Shown here piece after piece: positions 1-11,443 of a stretch of 64,000 nucleotides of DNA. The stretch comes from Tunturiibacter empetritectus (GTDB taxonomy: Bacteria > Acidobacteriota > Terriglobia > Terriglobales > Acidobacteriaceae). How positions within the stretch are numbered: position 1 is the stretch's first letter; every line of letters begins with the position of its first letter. Made by a program: the position numbers and the translations under genes. The notes under the pieces are model-generated. The model saw only the letters and a program-made list of their open reading frames with translations. It did not search any database and was not told where the DNA came from. The DNA lies in the NCBI RefSeq assembly GCF_014201375.1, contig NZ_JACHDZ010000003.1, positions 620,001 to 684,000 on the forward strand, given 5' to 3'.

Positions 1-498
1 CACGGGCATTCGTCACGCCACTACTCTGCCCGTCATAAGAGTTGTAGCCGATGTCGATGCTACCGCTGCCGTTCGCAGCGATGCCGGTCACCGTCCCCGG
101 AACATAAGTGGCTGACTGGCCACTTCCGGTTTTCACTCCTGCGCAGGTTCCAGAGGAGACCGAGACACTTTCGTGGTTGTCGTCGATTCGTGATTGGACC
201 ACGCAGTCATGCCCGTCTGGATCAACACTCGAAAGCGGGTTGTTCCTCACATAGCTGTAGAGATTGAAGCTCTGAGGATTGTCCATGTCGGCATAAGGAA
301 TGGAGTCTGGAATATCACTCCAGTCCGGCGACATGAAACGCCCCATCGAACTGCTGTTATATCTAGCCCCGAAGTAATCCAGCCCTGATTCAGCGTCTCT
401 TTCTTTGCCGGTAGAACGGTATTGCGAAAAACGTGCGTTAGTTGCACAAGCGGCGGACTCCGTCATAGGCATGTGGGCCTCCGAATCCTAGTTACAAA
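1..498 (-). pseudogene. Orphan RHS C-terminal fragment, runs off left edge
   Basis: The minus strand is open from just after a stop at 499-501 to the window edge. It encodes the end of an RHS core (TGKERDAESGLDYFGARY, then MGRFMSPDWS and NPLSSVDPDGHD) followed by a tip unlike that of the complete RHS gene next door. The possible starts are ATG codons at 472 and 466, but none of the signal peptide or YD-repeat body of an RHS protein lies upstream, so this is a 5'-truncated copy. The tip begins HDCVVQSRIDDNHESVSVSS and continues past position 1. It lies downstream of the intact RHS gene and its candidate immunity gene on the same strand, the usual place for an orphan tip module that can recombine onto the full-length gene. 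That role is inference. The 3' end is not in the window. Confidence 0.75.
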
Positions 499-586
499 CC
501 CCAGGTCTGAAAATTGAGGCTTGGCCCACTCGCCACGACATTCGAGCAGTCTCACATAACGGCGCCAACTTGCAGGGCATAATCGT

Positions 587-1108
587 TCATTTTGCTTTAT
601 CTTCTGATCCCTTGTCGGATTCACCGGTTTCGTTGCTGTAATCTGCGAAACTAAAAGAACACTCCAAGTTGAGTTCAGCCAGCCCGCGCATTTGTTCGGG
701 CCAAAGAGATGGACCACCTCCACCATGTTGAGACCACCAAGGACAACTGACATACATCTTGACGCACGGTTTTTCCTGAAGATCGCGCAGCGCTTCGGCC
801 TTTCGTCGCAAACGATCTAGAAGCCAATCAAGGTGGTGTCGGGCATCTCTTGATGAGACATATTCCTCGGAGGACAAAAACCATGCATTCAACTTTCCGA
901 GGCGCGTTCGGCCCAAACTGTTAGGCAATGACACTTCTCCCTTCACGACTACTCTAGTCGGGAGCTGGCTAAGCTGCTGGGTCACGGCCGATGGATGAAT
1001 GTCACCCGAATAAATGATCAGTACCGCACACGTCCTCTCGCACGCGTCAGTTAGAGCGTCTAACGGAGTGAATCGTGAATCTAACTCTGAGCGACTACGC
1101 AGAGTCAT
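587..1108 (-). CDS. DUF4279-like protein, candidate immunity gene of the RHS toxin
   Basis: A 173-residue cytoplasmic-looking protein with no signal peptide or membrane segment. From memory of the family it fits DUF4279: an opening segment with CAVLIIYSGDIHPSAVTQQL, a central W-F-L-S-S turn, a helix rich in LDWLLDRLRRKAEAL, and a late GGPSLWPEQMRGLAELNLE block. Its ATG overlaps the stop of the RHS gene by four bases, so the two are probably translationally coupled. In polymorphic toxin loci the gene directly after the toxin tip normally encodes the cognate immunity protein, and DUF4279-type proteins occur in such positions. The immunity role is inferred from position and family only. The tail after about residue 160 is acidic and probably disordered. 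Confidence 0.7.
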   Translation of the reverse strand: MTLRSRSELDSRFTPLDALTDACERTCAVLIIYSGDIHPSAVTQQLSQLPTRVVVKGEVSLPNSLGRTRLGKLNAWFLSSEEYVSSRDARHHLDWLLDRLRRKAEALRDLQEKPCVKMYVSCPWWSQHGGGGPSLWPEQMRGLAELNLECSFSFADYSNETGESDKGSEDKAK

Positions 1109-4100
1109 GGGATATGGTCTCCTATGTTACCTATCGTTTTTTCGATTCCGTTGACTACACCGCTGACATCACCATTCGACATGATCTTTCCATGGAAATC
1201 ATTTGGTAGTCCCTCGTCGCTCTTTAAGGATTCGAGTGCGCGGCCCCACTCTCGTGGCGTTAGGTCCTCGTCGAATGTCTTGTTGAGAGCATCTGCAGTT
1301 GCTTTTCTGACAGTATTTGAGCCAGTTTGAAGCGTTTTTGGCTTTTCTCCGGTGGGGGTCTTCTTGTCCTTGTCGTCGGGATTTGGATTTGCGGTGTTCG
1401 CAGGAGTGGCTATTGGTGGGGCGACAGGCTTCGATTTTCCAAAGTATTGATTCCAATACGAGGACACCGCGGCATTAAACCTTAGTGAGCGTTGTATGAA
1501 ATCATGCCATAAAAACTGAAAGTCTACAGGCTGATTGCATGCGCAATCCGGATTAAGCCGATAATGACCGTCAGGATCGGTGCGTGACAGCGGATTGTTT
1601 TCTACGTAGCCATACAGGTTGAGACTCTGTGGGTTCTCTAGATTCGCGTACGGAACAGGGTCGGGATCTTCACTCCAGTCGGGTGACATCCACCGCCCCA
1701 TGCTGCTTCCATAGTATCTAGCGCCGAAGTAGTCGAGGCCTGATTCGGCGTCCCGTTCTTTGCCGGTAAAATGTGTCGGGTCATTACCAAGGGAGCTAAG
1801 AGCGTCGCCGAACGGCAACGACGTGTATGAGGTGGGACTGATTGGTACAGCCTGCGAACCGATGTCTCCCTGTCCAGCGCTCTCGTAGCGCTTGGTCCCT
1901 AACCAGTCCGTTCCGGCCCAGAAGAATTGATTTGGTTGCCATGATCCGATCTTTTCCCCATCGATCGTGGCGCTCTGAACCACGTAACCTGAAGTTAGAT
2001 TGTTATTGCTCAAAATCTGACCGTTTTGGTCATACAGGAAAACTTGTGCTCCATTCGGGCCATTCTCAAAGGCAAGGTGACCTTCTGAGTCGTACCTGTA
2101 TCTTGACGTTCCGCCGAGAGTATCGACACGCCCGATACTGTCGTCTGGGTAATAGTAATAGTGTTGGCCCAGGTTATCTATGGTGACATTCCCGGCCGCG
2201 TCGTAGCTAAAACCCCCACTTGCGTCGGCCCTGTTGTTGTTGCCCGAGTAAGTGAAGCTTGACTGGGGAGCCGACCCGGTGCCTGATGCTGTCTGGGTCT
2301 TTCGGTTGCCGAACGAATCATAGGTCCAACCAAGGATGAGGCCCGCTGCAGAAGTGGCGCCCTTGAGTTGATTGAGGGGGTAGTACGTATAAGTCCAGTT
2401 CCCGTTGATACTGTCGTTCGCACTGTTGACATTCCCATTCGGGTAGTAGGTCAAAGCGACGTTGTAGCCGATCGAAGAGTCTGCGTTGAATTGGCTTTTT
2501 GTAAGCACCCTTCCACGCTTGTCGTAGGTTCTATTCTCGGTCAAGCCATTTCCCAATGTGCGAGAGGCCAATGTGCCAAAAGGACTGTACGTTGCGTTGG
2601 CGAAAATTTGATGCGAGTACACGGTTCCCAAGAGACCGGTTGTGGCTTTGTTGGAACTTGCCGCCATAGCGTGCCCCGCAGCGTCGCGGGTCACGGTGAT
2701 ATAGATTCCACCTCCGTTATCGATAAACGTGACATTGCCTGCAAGGTCATAGTTTGCGCCATTGCTGCCCGTTGATGTATTTACTGACGTTCCTGTTGCG
2801 TTGGGAAGCTGAAAGTGCCGTCCAGCCTGACGGCCCATCGCATCATAATAATAGCTATAGCGCGAATAGACTCCCCCATAGATGGCTGAGGACGAGCTTA
2901 GGCGGCCAATCGTGTTCGTCAGGGCGAAAGTGTTCCACGCGACGGTTTTTTCGTCGTAGTTGTAGAGATATGTTGCCCCGTTTTGCGGTGATGGTGTCTT
3001 CGAAAGGAGGCGGTTTAGTGCATCATATGCGTAAATCACTGAGAGACCACGAGCGTCGGTCTTCGTGATCACGTTGCCGTCGGCGTCGTAACTGTAGCTT
3101 ACAACTCCTTGGGGAAGGGAGGACGTTGCGGCGGTCGGACAGGGCACAGAACTGCTTTCGGGATTGGATGCACATATCAATCGAGAAAGAGAGTCATAGG
3201 TAAAACTGCGAACACGCGGCAACTCGTTGCCGGCGCCTTTCTGATACACCCCAACAAGGTTGTTCAGAGAGTCATAACTGTAGTCAGTCTCAAGAGTTGG
3301 GGTCGGACTGGTGGCTGAAGGCTCCAAAACCTGTTTTAGCCGACCCAAGCCATCATTTGTACGTTTCCACTGATTACCTGACTCATCCGTGAAAATGACC
3401 GAGTTGGCATTGTAGAGCCACGATTGAGTGCTGTTGTCCGGTTGGGTCTGCAATATCTTTCGGCTCAATGGATCATAGCCGTAGGTGGTTATTCCATATG
3501 TTAACTCGGTGATCGTCCGAAAGGGATTCGAAACATGCAGCAGCCTTCCCATTGGGTCGTAGTCCCTGGTTACAGTGATGTTTCCACCTGGATCGGTCAA
3601 GATCGTGGTGCTTAGCCGACCGAGGCCATCATAGGAATCAGTGTTGGTAATAGCGGTCCCGTTCGTATCCTGCAGAACCTGCTTTTGAACTGACCAGCCA
3701 GCAGACGAGTCGGTATAGTTTATGCTGCTAGTGCCATTTCCCGACTGATTCGTAGTTCCGTCGACTGTTGAGGGCGGGATTACTTTCCTTATCCGGTTCA
3801 GTGGATCGTCATATTGGAACTGGGTTACCTGGCTGTTCTCATCCGTATGAGAGGCCACGCTACCCGTAAAGTAATTATATGTGTAACTGTCGACATGCGA
3901 TGTACCACCTGTTGTCGGCCGTGTAACTTTTGTGGCATACGCATCTATAGGAGTCGATGGCGATCCTACGACATTAGCGTTCGAATATTCATAATTTGTA
4001 GTGTTGCCCTTTGGATCGGCGGCGCTTACTCGCATCCCAGCTATGTCATATTTGTAAATGCTAGGCGCTTGCCACGAACTGCAGATACCACCAGAGAAGA

Positions 4101-6012
4101 GAATACAGTGCTTCTCGGATGTGAGGTTGCCGCGAGGTCCGATCATCGTTGCTGGGTAATTCGCATCGTCATGATTCAGAATCCCCGCGCTACCACTCAA
4201 AGGAAATTCATCATAGTTGTATTGGACCATTGAAAATGGATTTCCGGCCCCGTCAGTCACAGTAATCTGCGACGGCTTATCAACGATAAAGGCCTGCAGG
4301 TATGGATATGATCGTTGGGTAGAATTAGGGTTGTTCCAAAGATAATTCGTCAACGTCTTCCGGAGCCATCCATTCGGAGGCGAGGAGGCAACTGTGCATG
4401 GAGAACCCGAGCACGCGTAATAGTCGGATTCATCCTTCTCAATAACATTGGAATAGGTGTCATATCTCATCTGCACCTGACGTTGCAGCGGTGTACTTCC
4501 ATCGTAAACGGTCGTGACGATCTGGCTGGGAAGGGGAGGGGTGTCTCCATAGACCGACTCAAGAAGATGATTACTACTATCATATCGATTACGTGAAATC
4601 TCCCGAAATGAAGGGGCGCCTTGAGGAAAGATTATGCTGTTAGTAAATCCCTTGCCTACATAATTAGTATAACCATCTGGGTCCGAGATCTTCGACGTTA
4701 GTTGGTTTGACCCGAACACATATGAGGGGAAGCTATAATTCCAGTGGTTCTCACCTGATCCAGAGGATATGTAGGAATCTTTAACCACAACACAGGAGAT
4801 GTAATTGAAGCTTCCGTATCCTCCGCAGTCGCCCCGGATGCCCCAGTTGAATTTAACGTAACCGCCCGTTGGAAACGTGATCTGCTGGATGGTCCCCCAG
4901 GTAGGATGATACGTAAAGCGATATAACGACGTCCCGTCTGGAAGCGATATCGATGTTACGGCAGTAGTGGTTGATGGAGACATTGGCTGAACATGGCCGG
5001 TGACATTGCCCATCGTTCCACTTGGATCGAGATTTGAGAGCTCCGAGTCCGTTGGGTGGGGAGAAGTATAACCTCCAATCGGAATTGTAGTTACGGTAAT
5101 CGTATATGTTTCATTAGCTCCATTCGCATCGCGCGTTGTTAATGTATAAGTTCCTGCAGGAATCGGTCCAACTTGTGCGATAGGAAAGGTTGTCGTAAAC
5201 GCCGGCCGTCCCGCACTATCCTGTGTTAGTGAAGCAGTATTTCCATTAGCGTCTTCAAGTTGGCCGTGTTGCCAAAACTTGGCCTCTCCCCAATATTGGG
5301 TCCCGTTTGGATAAATGAGTGGCGGTCCATAGCCATCTTTGGTAGTGATTCCTATGTTAGGCCCGAGACCGGGTATAGAAGTACGGATGCTTAAGCCGTC
5401 TCCTATATAGCCGTTCGTTGGTGAATTCTGGTACTCCGTGCATTGCGAATTAGGATTCGCTCCGATTCCACTGACATACGCTATGTCCATGTCATGCGTG
5501 GCGCCATTCTCGTCGGAGTAGAGATAAGGGCCAAATATCTGACATCCTCGTACGGTCGGTCCGGTGGTGCCATTCCCATATACTGGCGTGTAATCCGGAA
5601 TAGTAGTTGCGTTAGAGGTCAGGAAGGGGCCTGTAGTAGACCATGGACCAGTTGGGCCGGCGGGAGCGTTGTAGCTACCAGGAATCCATCCGAAGTCGAT
5701 AATCGTTCCATTGGTAGTGTGGACGTCCGTCTGCTGCAATGTGACGGTCGACGAGGAATTATAGAGAAGAGTGAATGGAATACGTGGTCCACGACCGCCT
5801 GCGGGCCCTGTCGGAAATGGAATTTTCACGGACAGAGTGCCGGTGAGATGGTCGACATCCCACACGGCGTCAAGATTCTGTGGAACAGGAGTCCCGGAAG
5901 GATTATGCTCATCGGCATAAACTCCTGGTGCAGCCTGAGCGTGACCAAAAGAAGATCCAAGAAGCAGGACTACCACGAGGAGACGTGCGGCACAGACAGT
6001 TATCCTCACCAT
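1105..6012 (-). CDS. Secreted RHS/YD-repeat protein with C-terminal polymorphic tip
   Basis: A 1635-residue protein. The start at 6012 is preferred over an upstream in-frame ATG at 6192 because it opens a good signal peptide (MVRITVCAARLLVVVLLLG, then HAQA) and has an AAAGGCGA ribosome site. The N-terminal part is a beta-rich shell segment; the middle and end contain dozens of YD-type repeats such as YDALNRLLSK and YDSLGRL-like units. The RHS core closes with GKERDAESGLDYFGARYYG and DPDGH near residue 1480. About 157 residues follow as a variable tip, with a proline/lysine linker and then a compact segment containing TPREWGRALESLKSDEGLPN and FHGKIMSNGD. That segment resembles recurrent RHS tips, but I cannot assign an activity. 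A secreted antibacterial or surface role is inferred. Base composition is lower in GC than the chromosome to the right. Confidence 0.9.
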   Translation of the reverse strand: MVRITVCAARLLVVVLLLGSSFGHAQAAPGVYADEHNPSGTPVPQNLDAVWDVDHLTGTLSVKIPFPTGPAGGRGPRIPFTLLYNSSSTVTLQQTDVHTTNGTIIDFGWIPGSYNAPAGPTGPWSTTGPFLTSNATTIPDYTPVYGNGTTGPTVRGCQIFGPYLYSDENGATHDMDIAYVSGIGANPNSQCTEYQNSPTNGYIGDGLSIRTSIPGLGPNIGITTKDGYGPPLIYPNGTQYWGEAKFWQHGQLEDANGNTASLTQDSAGRPAFTTTFPIAQVGPIPAGTYTLTTRDANGANETYTITVTTIPIGGYTSPHPTDSELSNLDPSGTMGNVTGHVQPMSPSTTTAVTSISLPDGTSLYRFTYHPTWGTIQQITFPTGGYVKFNWGIRGDCGGYGSFNYISCVVVKDSYISSGSGENHWNYSFPSYVFGSNQLTSKISDPDGYTNYVGKGFTNSIIFPQGAPSFREISRNRYDSSNHLLESVYGDTPPLPSQIVTTVYDGSTPLQRQVQMRYDTYSNVIEKDESDYYACSGSPCTVASSPPNGWLRKTLTNYLWNNPNSTQRSYPYLQAFIVDKPSQITVTDGAGNPFSMVQYNYDEFPLSGSAGILNHDDANYPATMIGPRGNLTSEKHCILFSGGICSSWQAPSIYKYDIAGMRVSAADPKGNTTNYEYSNANVVGSPSTPIDAYATKVTRPTTGGTSHVDSYTYNYFTGSVASHTDENSQVTQFQYDDPLNRIRKVIPPSTVDGTTNQSGNGTSSINYTDSSAGWSVQKQVLQDTNGTAITNTDSYDGLGRLSTTILTDPGGNITVTRDYDPMGRLLHVSNPFRTITELTYGITTYGYDPLSRKILQTQPDNSTQSWLYNANSVIFTDESGNQWKRTNDGLGRLKQVLEPSATSPTPTLETDYSYDSLNNLVGVYQKGAGNELPRVRSFTYDSLSRLICASNPESSSVPCPTAATSSLPQGVVSYSYDADGNVITKTDARGLSVIYAYDALNRLLSKTPSPQNGATYLYNYDEKTVAWNTFALTNTIGRLSSSSAIYGGVYSRYSYYYDAMGRQAGRHFQLPNATGTSVNTSTGSNGANYDLAGNVTFIDNGGGIYITVTRDAAGHAMAASSNKATTGLLGTVYSHQIFANATYSPFGTLASRTLGNGLTENRTYDKRGRVLTKSQFNADSSIGYNVALTYYPNGNVNSANDSINGNWTYTYYPLNQLKGATSAAGLILGWTYDSFGNRKTQTASGTGSAPQSSFTYSGNNNRADASGGFSYDAAGNVTIDNLGQHYYYYPDDSIGRVDTLGGTSRYRYDSEGHLAFENGPNGAQVFLYDQNGQILSNNNLTSGYVVQSATIDGEKIGSWQPNQFFWAGTDWLGTKRYESAGQGDIGSQAVPISPTSYTSLPFGDALSSLGNDPTHFTGKERDAESGLDYFGARYYGSSMGRWMSPDWSEDPDPVPYANLENPQSLNLYGYVENNPLSRTDPDGHYRLNPDCACNQPVDFQFLWHDFIQRSLRFNAAVSSYWNQYFGKSKPVAPPIATPANTANPNPDDKDKKTPTGEKPKTLQTGSNTVRKATADALNKTFDEDLTPREWGRALESLKSDEGLPNDFHGKIMSNGDVSGVVNGIEKTIGNIGDHIP

Positions 6013-6395
6013 CCCAATGTCGCCTTTCCGACACACCGGATATTCATAGATCAATCGAGGCGAGGTTTTAGAGTCGCGAACGATTTGCGCGAGAGGTCGA
6101 AAATTATTTTGAAAGATAGGAAAACGACCCAAGTGGGCTGTGAAATTCTGGACACCAAGGCGCATAGCAGCTCCGAAGAGTAAGTTGCACACACAAACGG
6201 GAAAGGTTCGCTACCTTGGCCGATGGACTTTATCCATCTTTAATTCACAGGATTGCCTAAATCGCAGATGCAATGTTAGGTCGCTTCGTTGTGCCAGTCT
6301 GAAACTAACCGCAATCTGAATTTGAGTCAATACTTTAAATTTGATCTCTATCTTGCTCGTTCCCGGATGAAAGTCAGAAGCGAGCTTACCCTTGA
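6013..6395. other. Non-coding gap upstream of the RHS gene
   Basis: This stretch holds the RHS leader and an AT-richer segment. An in-frame extension of the RHS gene reaches 6192 but lacks a better ribosome site. I see no RNA gene or repeat here. The left boundary of the transposase remnant is close to 6395; I could not find convincing terminal inverted repeats. Confidence 0.4.
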
Positions 6396-7190
6396 CTAGG
6401 TGTTTAGTCGCAGGGTTAGATGGGTTGGATCGAGTTTGAAGCGTTGCGGTTCTTTTGTCCAGATGGCGCAGATGTATTCGTAGGGTGTGAGTCCTTTGAG
6501 GGTCTTGAGTCTTCTGGCGAAGTTGTAGGCATGGACGAAGTCGGTGAGATGCTGCCGGAAGTGTTCGTTGGTCTGGTAGTGGAAGCGTTTGACGGTGGCT
6601 TCCTTAAGGGTTCTGTTCATGCGCTCGACTTGGCCATTGGTCCAGGGGTGCTTGGGCTTGGTGAGGCGGTGGTCGATGTCGGCTTTGGCGCAGGCGAACT
6701 CAAAGGCGTGGGCGCGGAAGAGTTCTCCCCGTTGGAGCGCCAGCTTGATCTCCGCAGCGGCGGAACACCGATTGCCGGGCGTAGTGAAATGCACTCCGTT
6801 ATCAGTGAGCACGGTATGGATCTTGTAAGGCACAGCTTGGAGAAGCGTATTCAAGAAGTTGGCCGCAACCCGCTGAGTGGCCTTCTCATGCACCTCCACG
6901 AAAACGAACTTGGAAGTGCGGTCGATGGCGACCAGAAGATAGAGCTTGCCTTGCTCCGTGCGCACCTCCGCGACATCGATATGGAAGTAGCCGATCGGAT
7001 AGGATTTGAACTTCTTGCGCCTGGGCGGTCTCCTTCCACATCGGAAAGTCTGGAAATATCGTGCCGCCGAAGGCAGCGGTGCAGCGACGATCGGGTCAAC
7101 TCCGAGATCGTGGCCTGCAGCGCATACAGGCAGTCGTCGAGCGGCAGCAGTGTATGCCGGCGAAAGGCAACGACAACAGCTTCCTGTTGA
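6396..7190 (-). pseudogene. IS481-type transposase, frameshifted and N-terminally truncated
   Basis: The integrase core of an IS481-family transposase. One frame begins with AVVVAFRRHTLLPLDDCLYA and continues through LTRSSLHRCLRRHDISRL. The next piece, beginning RRKKFKSYPIGYFHIDVAEV, lies in another frame, so a single-base frameshift near 7025 breaks the gene. The rest (LLVAIDRTSKFVFVEVHEKA, then TVLTDNGVHFTTPG, then WTNGQVERMNRTLKEA) carries the DDE acidic residues in their usual context. The normal N-terminal helix-turn-helix part is missing: the reading frame runs directly into an ATPase fragment near 7190. Both defects make this an inactive remnant. Confidence 0.85.
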
Positions 7191-7194
7191 GGGA

Positions 7195-7613
7195 AAGAAC
7201 CGTAGACTTCGGTGCCGGCGGCGCGTTTGAGGACGCGGACAAAACCCGATTTGCCGGAGCCGTTCTCTCCGAAGATGACCGTTACACCCGACGCGAAGAG
7301 GATCTCCGAGCCGGTCTTGAGCGCGTTGACACCGTCCCCAACCTTCAGGCCGTCTAACCGGACCGTCTCTACCAGACTGCTATCCAGTTGCTTTTCCTCA
7401 ATTTTCGGAACGGCCTCAAAAGGCTCTCTTGAGAGTTTCTTCTCCGATTGCAGCAGCTTCATATAACGGTCGATTTCGAGATCGGACGCCGGGACCCTGT
7501 TCTTTAAGAACATCGCCCGCAATGGCGCGAAGCCATCCGTCCTGGTCGTTTGCCCACCGTGGCAGGAGCGCTTGCGGCGCGCGAGCGCCGGGGTGTTGTT
7601 GTTGATTGAGCAT
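7195..7613 (-). pseudogene. AAA ATPase N-terminal fragment (broken)
   Basis: The N-terminus of a large AAA-type ATPase. It starts at ATG 7613 (MLNQQQHPGARA) and shifts frame near 7505, inside AGDVLKEQGP versus KNRVPASDLEI. It then reads through a Walker A motif, VIFGENGSGKSGFVRVLKRA, before joining transposase sequence near 7190. The body of the protein (coiled coil, Walker B, any nuclease or effector domain) is absent. The GENGSGKSG motif followed by VRVLKRA fits AAA_13/RloC-like ATPases seen in defence islands, but family membership rests on a short segment. The fusion point suggests a deletion that removed the ATPase 3' part and the transposase 5' part together. Confidence 0.7.
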
Positions 7614-7799
7614 TAACCAGACCTTCCAAGGCGGTACCGCGAAAGCGAAACAGGGGAGTGTGAAACTATAGTCCATTTAAACGACCAGAGGAAACATCAA
7701 TTCCAACGCCCAACACCGATGAGAAGTTGTCGACGGAAAAGATGGCGCCTAGGGTGCATTGAGCCTATGGAATGTCTGGCACTGCACTAAACGATTAAA

Positions 7800-9038
7800 T
7801 TATCCCGCAGGCTCGGTCGGAATATCGAATGCCATTATAGTGAGCGTAACTTCGCGATTTTGATCGTTAGGTTGTACGAATACATAACAGAATGTACTTT
7901 CATCTGCTTTACCAAGGTCACGCTTGAAGTTGGGATGCTTGGGACCGGTCTCGGCAATCTTTGCAAGGACAGCAGTGAAATCTGCATTCCTGTTGAACAC
8001 GATGACTGCGGTCTTCGTGTCTCTCCAGCTCAAGTAGGAAAGAAGTTGGTCTATTGTTGCGAGGAAAGCTTTCTCGCCTTTCCAAAACTTGCACTCGCCA
8101 ATAAAAACGTTCTTCCCGTCGACGCGAATAAGAATATCGGTCTTTCCCTGAAAATTGAATGTCTCGCCGGTCGCCTGACCTTGGAAAGCACCGTTGAGTT
8201 GCACAAGGAAATGGGAGCGCAGATCCTCCTCTCCCATGGAGAAAAATGCGTGCGGACTGAGTTCCATCACATGCACCATGTGTTTCACGATGCGCAGGAT
8301 TTCCTGATAATCCTCCGTGGAGAGAACGGGCTCCGGTTTGAAAGGGCCCGACACTTTGATCTGCTCGATCTTCGGCACGCGTCTGGCAACTGGAACAGAA
8401 TAGGTCGATGGCTCCCCTTCACGCTTTTTCATCGGCAAGCCTATGGCTGCTGTCATGCCTGCATCAGCGAGGAGCCTGTCTTTCCTCGATTTCAATTGCG
8501 CCGTCACCAAATTTTCAAGCTGGCTGTTGAACTGGGCAGTTGATTCTGACAAGGAGCGGAGATAACCCTTGATCGAGGTAACAGTTGCTTGATACTCCCG
8601 TTTGATCGCCTCCGCGTTTTGATCCGTTCGCAAGTAGGAGAGCAATATTTCGCTCTTCCCAATCTCGCCCCGCGGGGGGCTTAGTGAGTAGGTTTGGGGC
8701 TGAATTCGGAAGAACTCCGCATCGCCGTCGAACGGTACGGCTATGACCGTTTTGTTGCCTGGTACGTAAAAAGCTCGCGACCGATCGTGAATCATACGCA
8801 TGGGATCGCGGCTCACGTCAATCTGAGTTTCACCTGAATGTGCAATATAGATATCCTCGTCCCGGGTGATGGGGACATTGAGCCGAAATTCTTCTATAAG
8901 TGCCTGCACAAGATCGTGCTCGCTAGCATTCAATAGCGTGTTTGAAGGTAGAGACTGAACGCGTTTTTTAACCGCCTCCGTTTGTCCCTGAACAATGCCG
9001 TATATTTGGAATTTGTTGAAAAGAAGTTCATCACTCAT
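7800..9038 (-). CDS. Hypothetical protein with PD-(D/E)XK nuclease-like C-terminal domain
   Basis: An intact 412-residue gene on the minus strand. The N-terminal two thirds match nothing I can name; they include a helical segment (about 150-210) that could be a coiled coil. The C-terminal part reads GKTDILIRVDGKNVFIGECK, giving Asp301, Glu315 and Lys317 in the spacing of a PD-(D/E)XK active site. A following helix and strand (IDQLLSYLSWRDTKTAVIVF) fit the usual core of that fold. No signal peptide is visible. It sits between two truncated AAA-ATPase genes in an integrase-bounded island, which points to DNA defence or mobile-element competition as its setting. The start at 9038 leaves only four bases between the upstream remnant and this ATG. 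The nuclease call is inference from motif spacing. Confidence 0.6.
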   Translation of the reverse strand: MSDELLFNKFQIYGIVQGQTEAVKKRVQSLPSNTLLNASEHDLVQALIEEFRLNVPITRDEDIYIAHSGETQIDVSRDPMRMIHDRSRAFYVPGNKTVIAVPFDGDAEFFRIQPQTYSLSPPRGEIGKSEILLSYLRTDQNAEAIKREYQATVTSIKGYLRSLSESTAQFNSQLENLVTAQLKSRKDRLLADAGMTAAIGLPMKKREGEPSTYSVPVARRVPKIEQIKVSGPFKPEPVLSTEDYQEILRIVKHMVHVMELSPHAFFSMGEEDLRSHFLVQLNGAFQGQATGETFNFQGKTDILIRVDGKNVFIGECKFWKGEKAFLATIDQLLSYLSWRDTKTAVIVFNRNADFTAVLAKIAETGPKHPNFKRDLGKADESTFCYVFVQPNDQNREVTLTIMAFDIPTEPAG

Positions 9039-9042
9039 GTTT

Positions 9043-9204
9043 TCAGCTTTTCTGTCTCCTCACGCCGCAACTAGAGGGCGCGCTGCCAACGAGGTTTATT
9101 GCTTCGAGCAGTGTAGATTTACCCGACTCGTTGTCTCCGACAATGATGTTTAGGTGTGGGCGGATCTGGAGATTCAGTGAAGCTACCGAACCACTTTTCG
9201 CCAT
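9043..9204 (-). pseudogene. OLD/AAA-type ATPase N-terminal remnant
   Basis: A 53-codon minus-strand frame, MAKSGSVASLNLQIRPHLNI, followed by IVGDNESGKSTLLEAINLVG, which contains a complete Walker A motif. It stops soon after in GVRRQKS. Full members of the OLD/AAA family continue for several hundred residues after this motif, so this is a 3'-truncated remnant. The PD-(D/E)XK gene begins four bases beyond its stop, so the two could once have been one transcription unit, or the nuclease gene may have been joined here by a deletion. Confidence 0.6.
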
Positions 9205-9596
9205 TTCTGGATTGTACAGAGAGCGTCGATTTCGCCACTAAACCGACGTGCAGAATATTCTTACAAGGCAGTTATGGGCGCGAATGACCCCAGTCAGTAG
9301 GGACTTTGCGGCGACCATATCGCCTTTATGTAGTGCTGTCTCGGCGAGCGTCGGGAGGCTGTATGTCCATCGCTCTGTCAGCGAGCGACGACTACCACCG
9401 TTCTTGCAGATCCGTTGAAGATAGGAAGTCCCTTCTCCCATACCGAAGCAGGGTCTGACAAGAGGAGAAGTAGAATGTGACGATAACCGAGCTAGGATAT
9501 ACGAATCAGAGAATGGCATACACAGCGCTGACTACACCGTACCGAGGGTCTTGAGCGTGCGCCCGGTACCGGGCCGAGGCGGGCCGGTTCCGGCCC
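9205..9596. other. Gap without a recognisable gene
   Basis: I see no supported coding region in this stretch between the ATPase remnant and the tRNA terminator. Short frames exist on both strands but lack ribosome sites and recognisable protein content. A GC-rich block with CCGGTACCGGGC-type palindromic runs lies near 9560-9595. Confidence 0.4.
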
Positions 9597-9626
9597 AAAA
9601 ACATGCCAGGATGCTTCCATCCTGGC
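9597..9626 (-). terminator. Rho-independent terminator of tRNA-Leu
   Basis: A perfect 9-bp stem, GCCAGGATG/CATCCTGGC, with a 4-nt loop. On the minus strand it is followed by ATG and a run of five T. It begins about 18 bases after the tRNA 3' end. Confidence 0.8.
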
Positions 9627-9699
9627 CCTCTCGAGTGAAAGGTTTGGTGCGGGCGGGGGGACTTGAACCCCCACGACCTGATAAGGGTCTGCGGATTTT

Positions 9700-9909
9700 C
9701 ATACCACTTCGGCTTTCGCCGCCCCGATAAGCGAGTTCGTGGTCTGGACTATCCCTTCACCATTCCCCATATGAGGTTTAGGTGCTGCCCGTCTAGTCTC
9801 TACACCTTCCCAGAAGTGACTCCGGGCTTGGCTCGGGATTGCCGGATAAGGTTTCCCCGACTTTGAGCAGTTCTACTCCGCCGGTTTCCCGACGGGCACT
9901 CAATTACAT
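9700..9909 (-). ncRNA. Group I self-splicing intron in tRNA-Leu(UAA)
   Basis: A 210-nt intron on the minus strand. The conserved core elements are readable in order: a P-like element GTCGGGGAAACCTT, Q element AATCCCGAGCCAAGCC, R element GAGACTAGACGGGCAGCACC, and S element AAGGGATAGTCC. The base before the intron is T and its last base is G, the standard group I splice-site pair. The core closely resembles the small introns of cyanobacterial and plastid tRNA-Leu(UAA) (subgroup IC3). It has no homing endonuclease reading frame, and its length is at the small end for a catalytic group I intron. Confidence 0.92.
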
Positions 9910-9937
9910 AAGTCCGCTGTGTCTGCCGATTTCACCA
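9910..9937 (-). repeat. 28-bp direct repeat, copy in intact tRNA-Leu (att-like)
   Basis: Positions 9910-9937 are identical to 11409-11436. This copy is exon 1 of the intron-containing tRNA, from base 8 to the first anticodon base. The integrase gene lies between the two copies. Confidence 0.85.
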
Positions 9938-9987
9938 CGCCCGCATGATGAGTACAACAGAACCATCATAAAGCACGGAGCAAAGAT

Positions 9988-11274
9988 CTACGCTTCATCA
10001 GCTAAGGGGATGGCTTTCACTCGGCCTGGACCTTTCTTCGAAATCGGCTCCTTTTTCGAACGGGGTCTCATGATGTTGATGGCGGAAGCATCCAGACGTG
10101 TCTTCAAGTGGGCTGCGTAGTACTTCTCGATCATCTCGACGCTTGTCCGACAGTTCTTTGCGATCTGATAGATATCGGCTCCTTCGAGCAGACGCAGGCA
10201 AATGTAGGTGTGGCGGAGGCTATAAGCCGTTCGCGGCCTACCGTCGCGGTCAGTGCGAAGCTTTTCTTCGCCAAGTATTGCGTTGAACAGATCGCGCGGC
10301 CATTTCGGGAACAAAAGATCGGTAGGTCCTGGCTCGTGCCACTCGCCGTTGGCGATGGAAGCAGTACGGCTGCCTGATCTCCCCGGCCCGCCATCTGGTC
10401 TTGTGCGAGCTTTCAGCCGTTGGAATGGATGCACTGCTCCGGCAGTGCTCTTGCAATAGCCAACACCACGCTTTCCACGTACTTCGATCTCTAAGATGGT
10501 TTGGCCGCTGCCCTCGTCTTCAACCACCGTGACATCGCGAAACTGAAGACGCAATGCCTCATCGGGACGTAGGCCCGTGTTGGCGGAAAAAAGAACGTAA
10601 TCGTGAAGTTGCTCCGCTTCCCAACGGAAACGGGGCTGCTTGGGATCGTGCGCGCGTTTTCGCGTCGCCTCGTAAAGTTGCTTGTACTCCTCCGGGGAGA
10701 ACCACGCTCTATGCGAAATCTTGGACGACGAGCGGTATGGTTCCGACAGGTCCGGCAGATGATCTATCCATCCATGCCGCAGGGCTGTCTTGAAAATCTG
10801 GCGGAGGGTCACGATTTCCTGATGCATGGTGTTGCGCGCTGGCGGCTTGCCACGCGTAGCTTTGCATTCTTCGAGCCTATGGATGCGATATTCGTTGATC
10901 TTGCCCGCCGTGATCTCAGGAAGCACCATGTTCCCAAAGAATGGGACGAGGTGACCATTCGTACGCGCATGCTGTCCACGAGCATAGGTTGGGCTACGTT
11001 GTCCCTGCGTGATGATGTCGAACTCACGCAGGTATAACTTCGCAGCTTCGCGGAACATCTTCCCGCTTTTCAACTCACCGTCGCGAAGTTTACCTCGAAG
11101 CTGCAAGTACCAGTCTTCTGCGAACTCCTTTGCCTTGGAGAGACTGTCTTCCTTCGTGGTCGTGCGTCGATTCTTGCTTGCCAGATAGCTTGCGCATTGC
11201 CAGCTAGAACTATTGGGACGTCTGTAGATGTGTACCTTGCCGCCAAGGATCGTGTGATGTTCGGACACGCGCAT
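9988..11274 (-). CDS. Tyrosine-type site-specific integrase
   Basis: A 428-residue tyrosine recombinase. An N-terminal arm-binding/core-binding region (about 50-190) precedes the catalytic domain. Arg236 lies in TGLRPDEALRL, the second catalytic block is AYSLRHTY with Arg354-His355, and the tyrosine is in IEKYYAAHL (385 or 386). The usual LGH segment is replaced by NCRTS, a variation I have seen in divergent integrases; activity therefore is likely but not certain. The gene reads toward the intact tRNA-Leu, its 3' end 43 bases from the tRNA 5' end, and its own upstream region holds the truncated tRNA copy. This layout is typical of an integrative element using a tRNA gene as attachment site. 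Confidence 0.9.
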   Translation of the reverse strand: MRVSEHHTILGGKVHIYRRPNSSSWQCASYLASKNRRTTTKEDSLSKAKEFAEDWYLQLRGKLRDGELKSGKMFREAAKLYLREFDIITQGQRSPTYARGQHARTNGHLVPFFGNMVLPEITAGKINEYRIHRLEECKATRGKPPARNTMHQEIVTLRQIFKTALRHGWIDHLPDLSEPYRSSSKISHRAWFSPEEYKQLYEATRKRAHDPKQPRFRWEAEQLHDYVLFSANTGLRPDEALRLQFRDVTVVEDEGSGQTILEIEVRGKRGVGYCKSTAGAVHPFQRLKARTRPDGGPGRSGSRTASIANGEWHEPGPTDLLFPKWPRDLFNAILGEEKLRTDRDGRPRTAYSLRHTYICLRLLEGADIYQIAKNCRTSVEMIEKYYAAHLKTRLDASAINIMRPRSKKEPISKKGPGRVKAIPLADEA

Positions 11275-11402
11275 TCACCTCCACACTCTCATGAATAACA
11301 CGAAAAATGTGTGAGGGTTGCGTAAGGTTTGTGATCATTCTCGAAATCTAACATGTATTTTATTTTCATGAATTTATGTGAGATAGACGTACAAACTGAA
11401 TC

Positions 11403-11443
11403 GATTTTAAGTCCGCTGTGTCTGCCGATTTCACCATCCGGGC
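11403..11443 (-). pseudogene. 5' half of an intronless tRNA-Leu(UAA), split att site
   Basis: On the minus strand this reads as a tRNA-Leu 5' half: acceptor strand GCCCGGA, D-arm region GGTGAAATCGGCAGACAC, anticodon stem GCGGA and loop CTTAAAA, then breaks off after the first base pair partners (TC). The anticodon loop is continuous, so this copy has no intron. Its acceptor strand (GCCCGGA) cannot pair with the 3' end of the intact gene nearby (CGCCCGC), so the two halves do not belong to one gene. Its true 3' half should end in TCCGGGC and is not seen in the window. Confidence 0.85.
11409..11436 (-). repeat. 28-bp direct repeat, copy in split tRNA-Leu (att-like)
   Basis: Identical to 9910-9937. 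To its left are AT-rich sequences with ATGAAT/ATGTGAG motifs, near 11290-11310 and 11368-11385, that could be integrase arm sites. The arm-site idea is tentative. Confidence 0.8.

Follow-up and report, generated by a model that had tools for sequence, protein, structure and literature searches.

An intron-bearing tRNA-Leu(UAA) as the probable replacement gene of an acidobacterial integrative element, probably shielded by its group I intron from the element's own integrase

The tRNA-Leu(UAA) genes of cyanobacteria and plastids carry group I introns, the cyanobacterial ones being of a subgroup that we take to be IC3. Other work has dealt with what happens to a host tRNA gene when a mobile element integrates into it. 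In tRNA-dependent lysogeny, actinobacteriophages carry replacement tRNAs (Guerrero-Bustamante and Hatfull 2024, PMC10865867), and prophage Lj965 of Lactobacillus johnsonii is also named in the discussion of that paper. Across the whole paper the word intron occurs in a reference title only, and sections 6, 10 and 11 do not raise how the phage tRNA escapes the integrase. For integration hot spots of Sinorhizobium meliloti, the substitution of a host tRNA gene by an incoming one is discussed, with a citation of tRNA-dependent lysogeny (PMC11476347); the passages on this substitution concern phage-related sequences and mention no intron. The genomic islands described with Islander have a tyrosine integrase acting in a tRNA gene and restore that gene (PMC4383910). 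In Archaea, tRNA introns have been linked to gain via mobile elements, and PMC3293823 cites the proposal of Randau and Soll by which an intron keeps elements from integrating at a tRNA gene; there an archaeal tRNA intron is proposed to shield the host or the integrated element from other elements.

Here we describe a locus of Tunturiibacter empetritectus, contained in a stretch of 64,000 nucleotides (the window), at which an integrative element splits the host tRNA-Leu(UAA) gene and carries a complete tRNA-Leu(UAA) gene with a group I intron. Judging from sequence comparison, this gene is probably the element's replacement for the one it splits, with the intron shielding the spare from the element's own integrase. 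Unlike the temperate phages to which tRNA-dependent lysogeny refers, the element encodes a MobF relaxase and a TrwB/TraD-type coupling protein; its kind is found in other phyla, and the replacement genes have either a group I intron in the attachment core or an altered anticodon arm. Unlike the tRNA-restoring islands, it does not restore its target. In contrast to the archaeal case, a group I intron sits in the element's own spare gene, and both the empty site and the far end of the element were identified. The gene, the insertion point and, to our knowledge, the kind of ribozyme core are those of the cyanobacterial and plastid introns, whereas the core motif is one of a set from Alphaproteobacteria, Acidobacteriota and Binatota (among the matches listed) and is carried in an element's replacement gene. 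Our searches of open-licence papers turned up no replacement tRNA described as having a group I intron, and no account of anticodon-arm changes as integrase avoidance. Replacement tRNAs themselves are known from actinophages; what appears to be new is an intron that would protect such a gene from the integrase of the same element. If the reading is right, a group I intron has the concrete job of protecting a gene from a site-specific recombinase, and replacement tRNAs are a feature not only of phages but also of elements with conjugative relaxases in several phyla. The old idea that tRNA introns block integration would then be directly testable in ordinary soil bacteria.

The original prediction, that a group I intron interrupts the anticodon of a tRNA-Leu(UAA), was borne out by three lines of evidence. 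With introns allowed, ARAGORN placed a tRNA-Leu(taa) at exactly 9645-9944, its 210-nt intron following base 35; the joined exons make a normal 90-nt tRNA-Leu(taa). The covariance model RF00028 gave a significant match at 9729-9919 on the minus strand (44.1 bits, E 2.5e-9) over the whole length of the model (positions 1-253), below the curated Rfam cut-off of 50 bits. The default Rfam scan of the window at curated thresholds did not list the intron, and ARAGORN without intron handling returned zero tRNAs in the window; these blanks were not read as absence, and they illustrate how gene callers miss such tRNAs. The third line is covariation. In an alignment of 40 introns, 21 of the 53 predicted pairs had at least one sequence changed on both sides with pairing kept, by a method that cannot draw the core pseudoknot. 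The core is invariant in this alignment, as are G9, G11 and the final G, and A10 is nearly so. In the window, the 5' exon ends in ACUU, the U before the 5' splice site faces an internal G and the last intron base is G; the exon-intron pairing CUU/GAG was judged by eye. A parsing pattern that required ACTT and the final G, and no base pairing, yielded 87 distinct intron-bearing genes of the same kind from all the loci collected. All 87 have at least six of seven acceptor pairs and at least four of five anticodon-stem pairs, and since the pattern ignored pairing, the gene type is not a product of chance. Seven loci hand-picked across phyla all matched the same Rfam family (E 1.2e-7 to 8.8e-11, one above the cut-off). 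The locus thus holds an entire tRNA-Leu(UAA) gene whose anticodon is interrupted, between U34 and A35, by a group I intron that is predicted to be self-splicing. At 210 nt the intron is too short for a homing endonuclease gene. The -10-like hexamer ahead of the gene reads TATGAT in 11 and TATCAT in two of the 13 element copies compared. The features of the locus are collected in Table 1.

Table 1. Features of the intron-bearing tRNA gene and of the surrounding element, in window coordinates
Feature	Position	Strand	Basis or remark
Complete intron-bearing tRNA-Leu(UAA)	9645-9944	minus	ARAGORN with introns allowed
5' exon of replacement tRNA-Leu(UAA), acceptor GCGGGCG to U34	9910-9944	minus	
Group I intron, 210 nt, between U34 and A35	9700-9909	minus	RF00028, ARAGORN, covariation
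3' exon of replacement tRNA-Leu(UAA), CCA included	9645-9699	minus	
TATGAT, -10-like hexamer, ending 20 bases ahead of the tRNA	9965-9970	minus	predicted promoter role
Tyrosine integrase of the element, 428 aa	9988-11274	minus	Pfam in relatives, alignment
attL, 5' half of the host uninterrupted tRNA-Leu(UAA), cut in the anticodon arm	11403-11443	minus	
35-bp repeat common to attL and attR	11403-11437	minus	
Element portion within the window	1-11437	not assigned	about 21.8 kb more beyond the window start
RHS-repeat protein, element cargo	1108-6165	minus	PF05593, E 4.8e-26

The integrase gene lies just upstream of the intron tRNA on the same strand, and upstream of the integrase gene lies the 5' half of the host tRNA. 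This order of 5' half, recombinase and intron tRNA is the same as in the account of Caldiarchaeum tRNA-Thr in PMC3293823, and the intron copy could likewise be taken for the attR junction of a small element whose insertion of 1.5 kb introduced the intron into the host tRNA. The window genome (G000; 4.83 Mb, 15 contigs, 99.3% complete) indicates otherwise. On the same contig, at G000:C3:598184 and 33 kb from attL, lies the partner 3' half of the host gene, whose acceptor strand makes 7 of 7 pairs with the 5' half at 11403-11443; the acceptor stem of the intron gene is different and pairs with itself. In the related genome G047, an intact uninterrupted tRNA-Leu(UAA) stands between both of these flanks, with identity to G000 of 93.7% over 1.5 kb on the left and 88.5% over 1.5 kb on the right. 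This empty site and attR refute the small-element reading for the window genome, and we regard it as exceedingly improbable. The element is instead 33 kb long, and its target is not regenerated: the 3' half is absent from attL, and the 5' strand of the acceptor stem from attR. The att core shared by the two ends is 35 bp in the window genome and goes down to GGACT[TC]AAAATC in relatives.

Elements with related integrases split either tRNA-Leu(UAA) or tRNA-Leu(CAA). Acceptor pairing is 7/7 where the att halves lie on one contig (UAA: G000, G011 and G073; CAA: G003, G014, G043, G010:C30, G405 and G725), and also for presumed halves on separate contigs (UAA: G052, G021 and G010; CAA: G015). The replacement 5' strand makes only 4 of 7 pairs with attR in the 12 of these 13 elements in which a replacement was found; acceptor stems are alike in most compared genomes, and the pairing test is most telling in G011, whose stem differs. 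Both element ends were readable in the window's own class only, a short remnant in G485 counted.

The element is probably integrative and mobilizable and not a phage. An integrase, both ends and, between them, a MobF/TrwC relaxase and a TrwB/TraD-type coupling protein are present (the Pfam scan covered 11 of the 23 listed element ORFs). Of the other eight elements compared, seven have the relaxase (G003 a 254-aa matching ORF only) and six the coupling protein. No integrase relatives were found at E 1e-20 among 50,697 phage records. In IMG/VR, six contigs encode integrase relatives, three at 51-59% identity, which weighs against the non-phage reading. Four full-length plasmid relatives of the integrase have no adjoining tRNA-Leu. 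Pfam Phage_integrase was found in 8 of 12 aligned relatives, and the window integrase itself gave only a SAM-like domain match slightly below its cut-off. Cargo seen at L032 comprises a CHAT-domain protein (7179-9335) and a pro-kumamolisin-type peptidase (3691-5373). The suggestion that intron and tRNA gene move together with the adjacent integrative element is upheld. To it we add the minus strand, the host tRNA that the element splits, the element's distal end, the role as a replacement and the placement of the intron in the core.

The tRNA complement of the window genome suggests why the element carries such a gene. The genome has 48 tRNA-model matches, with leucine anticodons GAG, CAA, TAG and CAG. 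One match is the attR remnant, which ARAGORN does not call a tRNA, and in seven of 71-75 bases the anticodon was unread; these are too short for leucine tRNA. A second tRNA-Leu(UAA) supplying the function had been named as the finding that would speak against the original prediction, and when the exons of the intron gene were searched against the genome, no second intact copy turned up. UUA codons are used in four of the six genes counted. Because no other intact tRNA-Leu(UAA) was found, we infer that the intron copy is the replacement for the split host gene; decoding rules, together with the same search result, suggest that the element's tRNA would be needed for host survival after integration.

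This is consistent with the distribution in the genus. Eight of 62 genomes have the intron gene, in 10 copies of which one is cut by a contig end (G074 has a fragment), and all 10 adjoin this integrase or its remains. Nine lie in a split tRNA-Leu(UAA) or at a tandem junction, and one (G015:C9) lies in a split tRNA-Leu(CAA). Seven of the eight intron-carrying genomes showed no further intact tRNA-Leu(UAA) at the search sensitivity used; G015 also has an intact uninterrupted tRNA-Leu(UAA), which counts against the replacement reading. G073 has two tandem elements, the second at the att junction of the first, with both intron genes intact. In G010:C72, G008, the first G073 element and L329 the tRNA gene is retained and the integrase frame is broken or truncated, possibly through assembly error. 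Partial matches to the intron or intron tRNA also occur in genomes without the integrase (G079:C1:2901529-2901665, G061:C2:176041-176112 and G074:C126:4145-4259). As a separate observation, the host attR 3' half (G000:C3:598184) and the exon at 9645-9699 have a common variable loop, CCCTTATCAGG, unseen in the other compared copies, which hints at gene conversion between them.

The position of the intron relative to the att core is what suggests a shield. With its exons joined, the replacement departs from the 90-base host tRNA at eight positions, which together form four pairs of the acceptor stem; from base 8 to 79, att core included, the two are identical. The intron splits the shortest core seen at its middle, between GGACTT and AAAATC. 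Since the exons match the split host gene over the whole core, an intron-free replacement would hold a perfect integrase target. We propose that the tyrosine integrase acts on the anticodon arm of the host gene for tRNA-Leu(UAA), recombining it with a short, putative attP; as attL, attR and the empty site show, that gene is left split and not rebuilt. The element brings its own complete tRNA-Leu(UAA), just downstream of the integrase gene, and this replacement would decode UUA codons, so that the host stays alive. With the core interrupted by the intron, the integrase should be unable to use the spare gene, and RNA splicing would restore a normal tRNA from it. Relatives without the intron apparently evade the integrase by altered anticodon-arm bases.

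The intron might guard the replacement from other tRNA-Leu elements, or from another agent, and not from the element's own integrase. Extra tRNA-Leu(UAA) 3' halves in G005, G015 and G021 suggest further elements there, and phage tRNAs with anticodon-loop changes that evade nucleases have been published. A spliced intron, however, leaves the mature tRNA unchanged and would not hide it from a nuclease, and a guard against foreign integrases would not conflict with avoidance of the element's own. We consider this reading very unlikely and retain the element's own integrase as the probable agent avoided.

A natural control is provided by elements that target the other leucine tRNA. We assembled an integrase-first sample, chosen regardless of the intron, with a cut-off of E 1e-60 in the 62 genomes of the genus and of E 1e-50 in 399 genomes of the class; with L113 (G010:C72), which was known from the intron search and whose degenerate integrase falls under the 1e-60 cut, this comprised 36 loci. 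The target was readable in 33, with L105, L417 and L419 left out as unreadable, L198, L201, L416, L418 and L423 classed from the loop alone, and weaker integrase relatives (at most 35% identity, or short pieces) left unclassed. An intron gene lay directly downstream of the integrase in 14 of 16 UAA targets compared to 1 of 17 CAA targets (Fisher p 2e-6, kinship ignored). The p value was 5e-6 without L113 and 1e-5 without L113 and the five loop-only targets. In a tree of 60 integrases, which also takes in intron-selected loci, the UAA-with-intron label needs six changes, five of them forced by well-supported branches. The exceptions are L408 (G780:C228), where UAA is split and the 14 kb that remain of the contig hold no intron gene; L423 (G649:C19), a UAA element with an uninterrupted tRNA-Leu(UAA) whose stem is changed; and G015:C9, split in CAA yet with a UAA intron gene. 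The integrase-first sample and the intron-first sample described below overlap, and their counts are not independent; L322, L324, L328 and L350 of the latter are records of genomes also in the former.

Elements without the intron can carry a different kind of replacement. Eleven of the 17 CAA elements have their own uninterrupted tRNA-Leu(CAA) with an altered anticodon arm and 5/5 stem pairs. Overall, uninterrupted replacements altered in this arm, with 5/5 stem pairs, come in six kinds. In seven genomes (G003, G014, G043, G015, G070, G078 and G725) the 29:41 pair is changed from G-C to A-U. In the genus, six of the 62 genomes match this type at 97-100% identity, and each of the six has a CAA element; a 95% identical fragment is present in G073, which has no such element. 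The replacement of G405 has 31:39 changed from A-U to U-A plus other changes, that of G649:C1 has U-A at 31:39 (the split target was compared by eye), and that of G491 has A31 changed to G plus other changes, the same gene being present in G485. On the IMG/VR contig L426 the replacement differs from the split target by one anticodon-arm loop base, C32 to U, which counts against avoidance by altered arms. No replacement was seen in the CAA elements G010:C30 (read end to end) and G013 (genome search), nor within 12-19 kb around each of G661:C2, G632, G709 and G780:C189, where the elements are partly covered. A UAA anticodon can read UUG as well, and the loss of the CAA tRNA may therefore be bearable. 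A 2-kb remnant in G485:C167 (L418) has both tRNA-Leu(CAA) halves, a partial integrase and, on the opposite strand, the replacement tRNA-Leu(CAA).

To place the intron more broadly, a 27-base intron core motif was compared with 84,980 prokaryote species genomes, giving at least 118 stretches with at least 119 motif places. The 80 motif matches listed included no cyanobacteria and came mostly from Alphaproteobacteria and Acidobacteria. The surprise expressed at an intron outside cyanobacteria is thus not supported, and the intron does not look like a cyanobacterial stray; of the original prediction, the intron in the tRNA-Leu(UAA) anticodon and its movement with the element stand. Hosts among the listed matches include Bradyrhizobium lablabi, Afipia, Caulobacter, a Micavibrio, a Binataceae genome and Acidobacteriaceae, and at least 72 full intron-bearing tRNA-Leu(UAA) genes were parsed from the 118 stretches listed. 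Among the 119 motif places listed, 32 have an integrase relative upstream on the same strand, and these relatives occur in Acidobacteriota, Alphaproteobacteria and Binatota. Fourteen of the 32 also have a split 5' half 1489-1624 bases before the motif; the count leaves out split halves without an integrase at L277, L287, L340 (the gene's own exon) and L385, and degenerate halves at L306, L330 and L346 and a core-only one at L351, which were seen and not counted.

The other places bear on whether the intron is a mere passenger, brought by a real replacement gene from a lineage with a resident intron, so that avoidance of the integrase is incidental. No integrase relative was found in the available flanking DNA of 87 of the 119 listed places (32 of the 119 have less than 1.7 kb upstream), many of them tRNA-Leu(UAA) genes of Alphaproteobacteria and Acidobacteriota with the same intron type, and the intron can thus live without this role. 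In the intron tree, moreover, the 32 integrase-adjoining introns are scattered among 55 others, with 16 label changes of which at least three are forced. The window intron belongs to a clade of 13, all element introns; these 13, from Acidobacteriaceae, have as their nearest kin a Caulobacter element and two proteobacterial genes beside which no integrase was seen. Branches outside the clade are weakly supported. Three observations oppose a passenger. Intron aside, the replacement equals the split gene over the entire core; among UAA elements the intron is present in several phyla; and where a replacement is uninterrupted, its anticodon arm is altered instead. On balance a passenger is unlikely, and we favour an intron that shields the replacement.

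More tentatively, group I introns of bacterial tRNA-Leu(UAA) may have been selected and spread as integrase shields, since elements that split this gene would require a spare hidden from their integrase, and may have been carried by the integrases, with the resident copies of Alphaproteobacteria and Acidobacteriota being in part fossils of replacement genes. If this were true, transport by integrases would explain how a 210-nt intron without a homing gene moved between phyla, and would offer a possible route for the spread of tRNA-Leu introns.

Several further loci were noted in the course of these searches. The acidobacterial intron genes of G092 and G359 were considered as the source of the window intron and set aside, the intron tree placing its nearest kin elsewhere. 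G359 has two intron-bearing tRNA-Leu(UAA) genes about 3 kb apart (G359:C6:41778-45129, L236), with an 860-codon open frame and no integrase seen between them. At L287 and L385 a split tRNA-Leu(UAA) 5' half lies about 300 bases before the intron tRNA-Leu(UAA), with no related integrase between; these are perhaps collapsed elements. The extra tRNA-Leu(UAA) 3' halves lie at G015:C32 (L080), G021:C11 (L077), and G005:C211 and C94 (L091, L093), and some are in genomes with an intact copy, suggesting other, tRNA-restoring islands at the same gene. The IMG/VR contigs L430-L433 (140-540 kb) were rejected as elements of this kind, having the core motif in a class I tRNA and no related integrase; on L430 a tRNA-Leu(UAA) at 4114-4437 is interrupted by a related intron as well. 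Group I intron matches were found in 30 of 396 Acidobacteriota genomes (L207-L235), where the hosts, assigned with ARAGORN and by eye, include tRNA-Asn(GUU), tRNA-Pro, tRNA-Arg(UCU), tRNA-Leu and 23S rRNA, and some of these introns come with endonuclease-like sequence.
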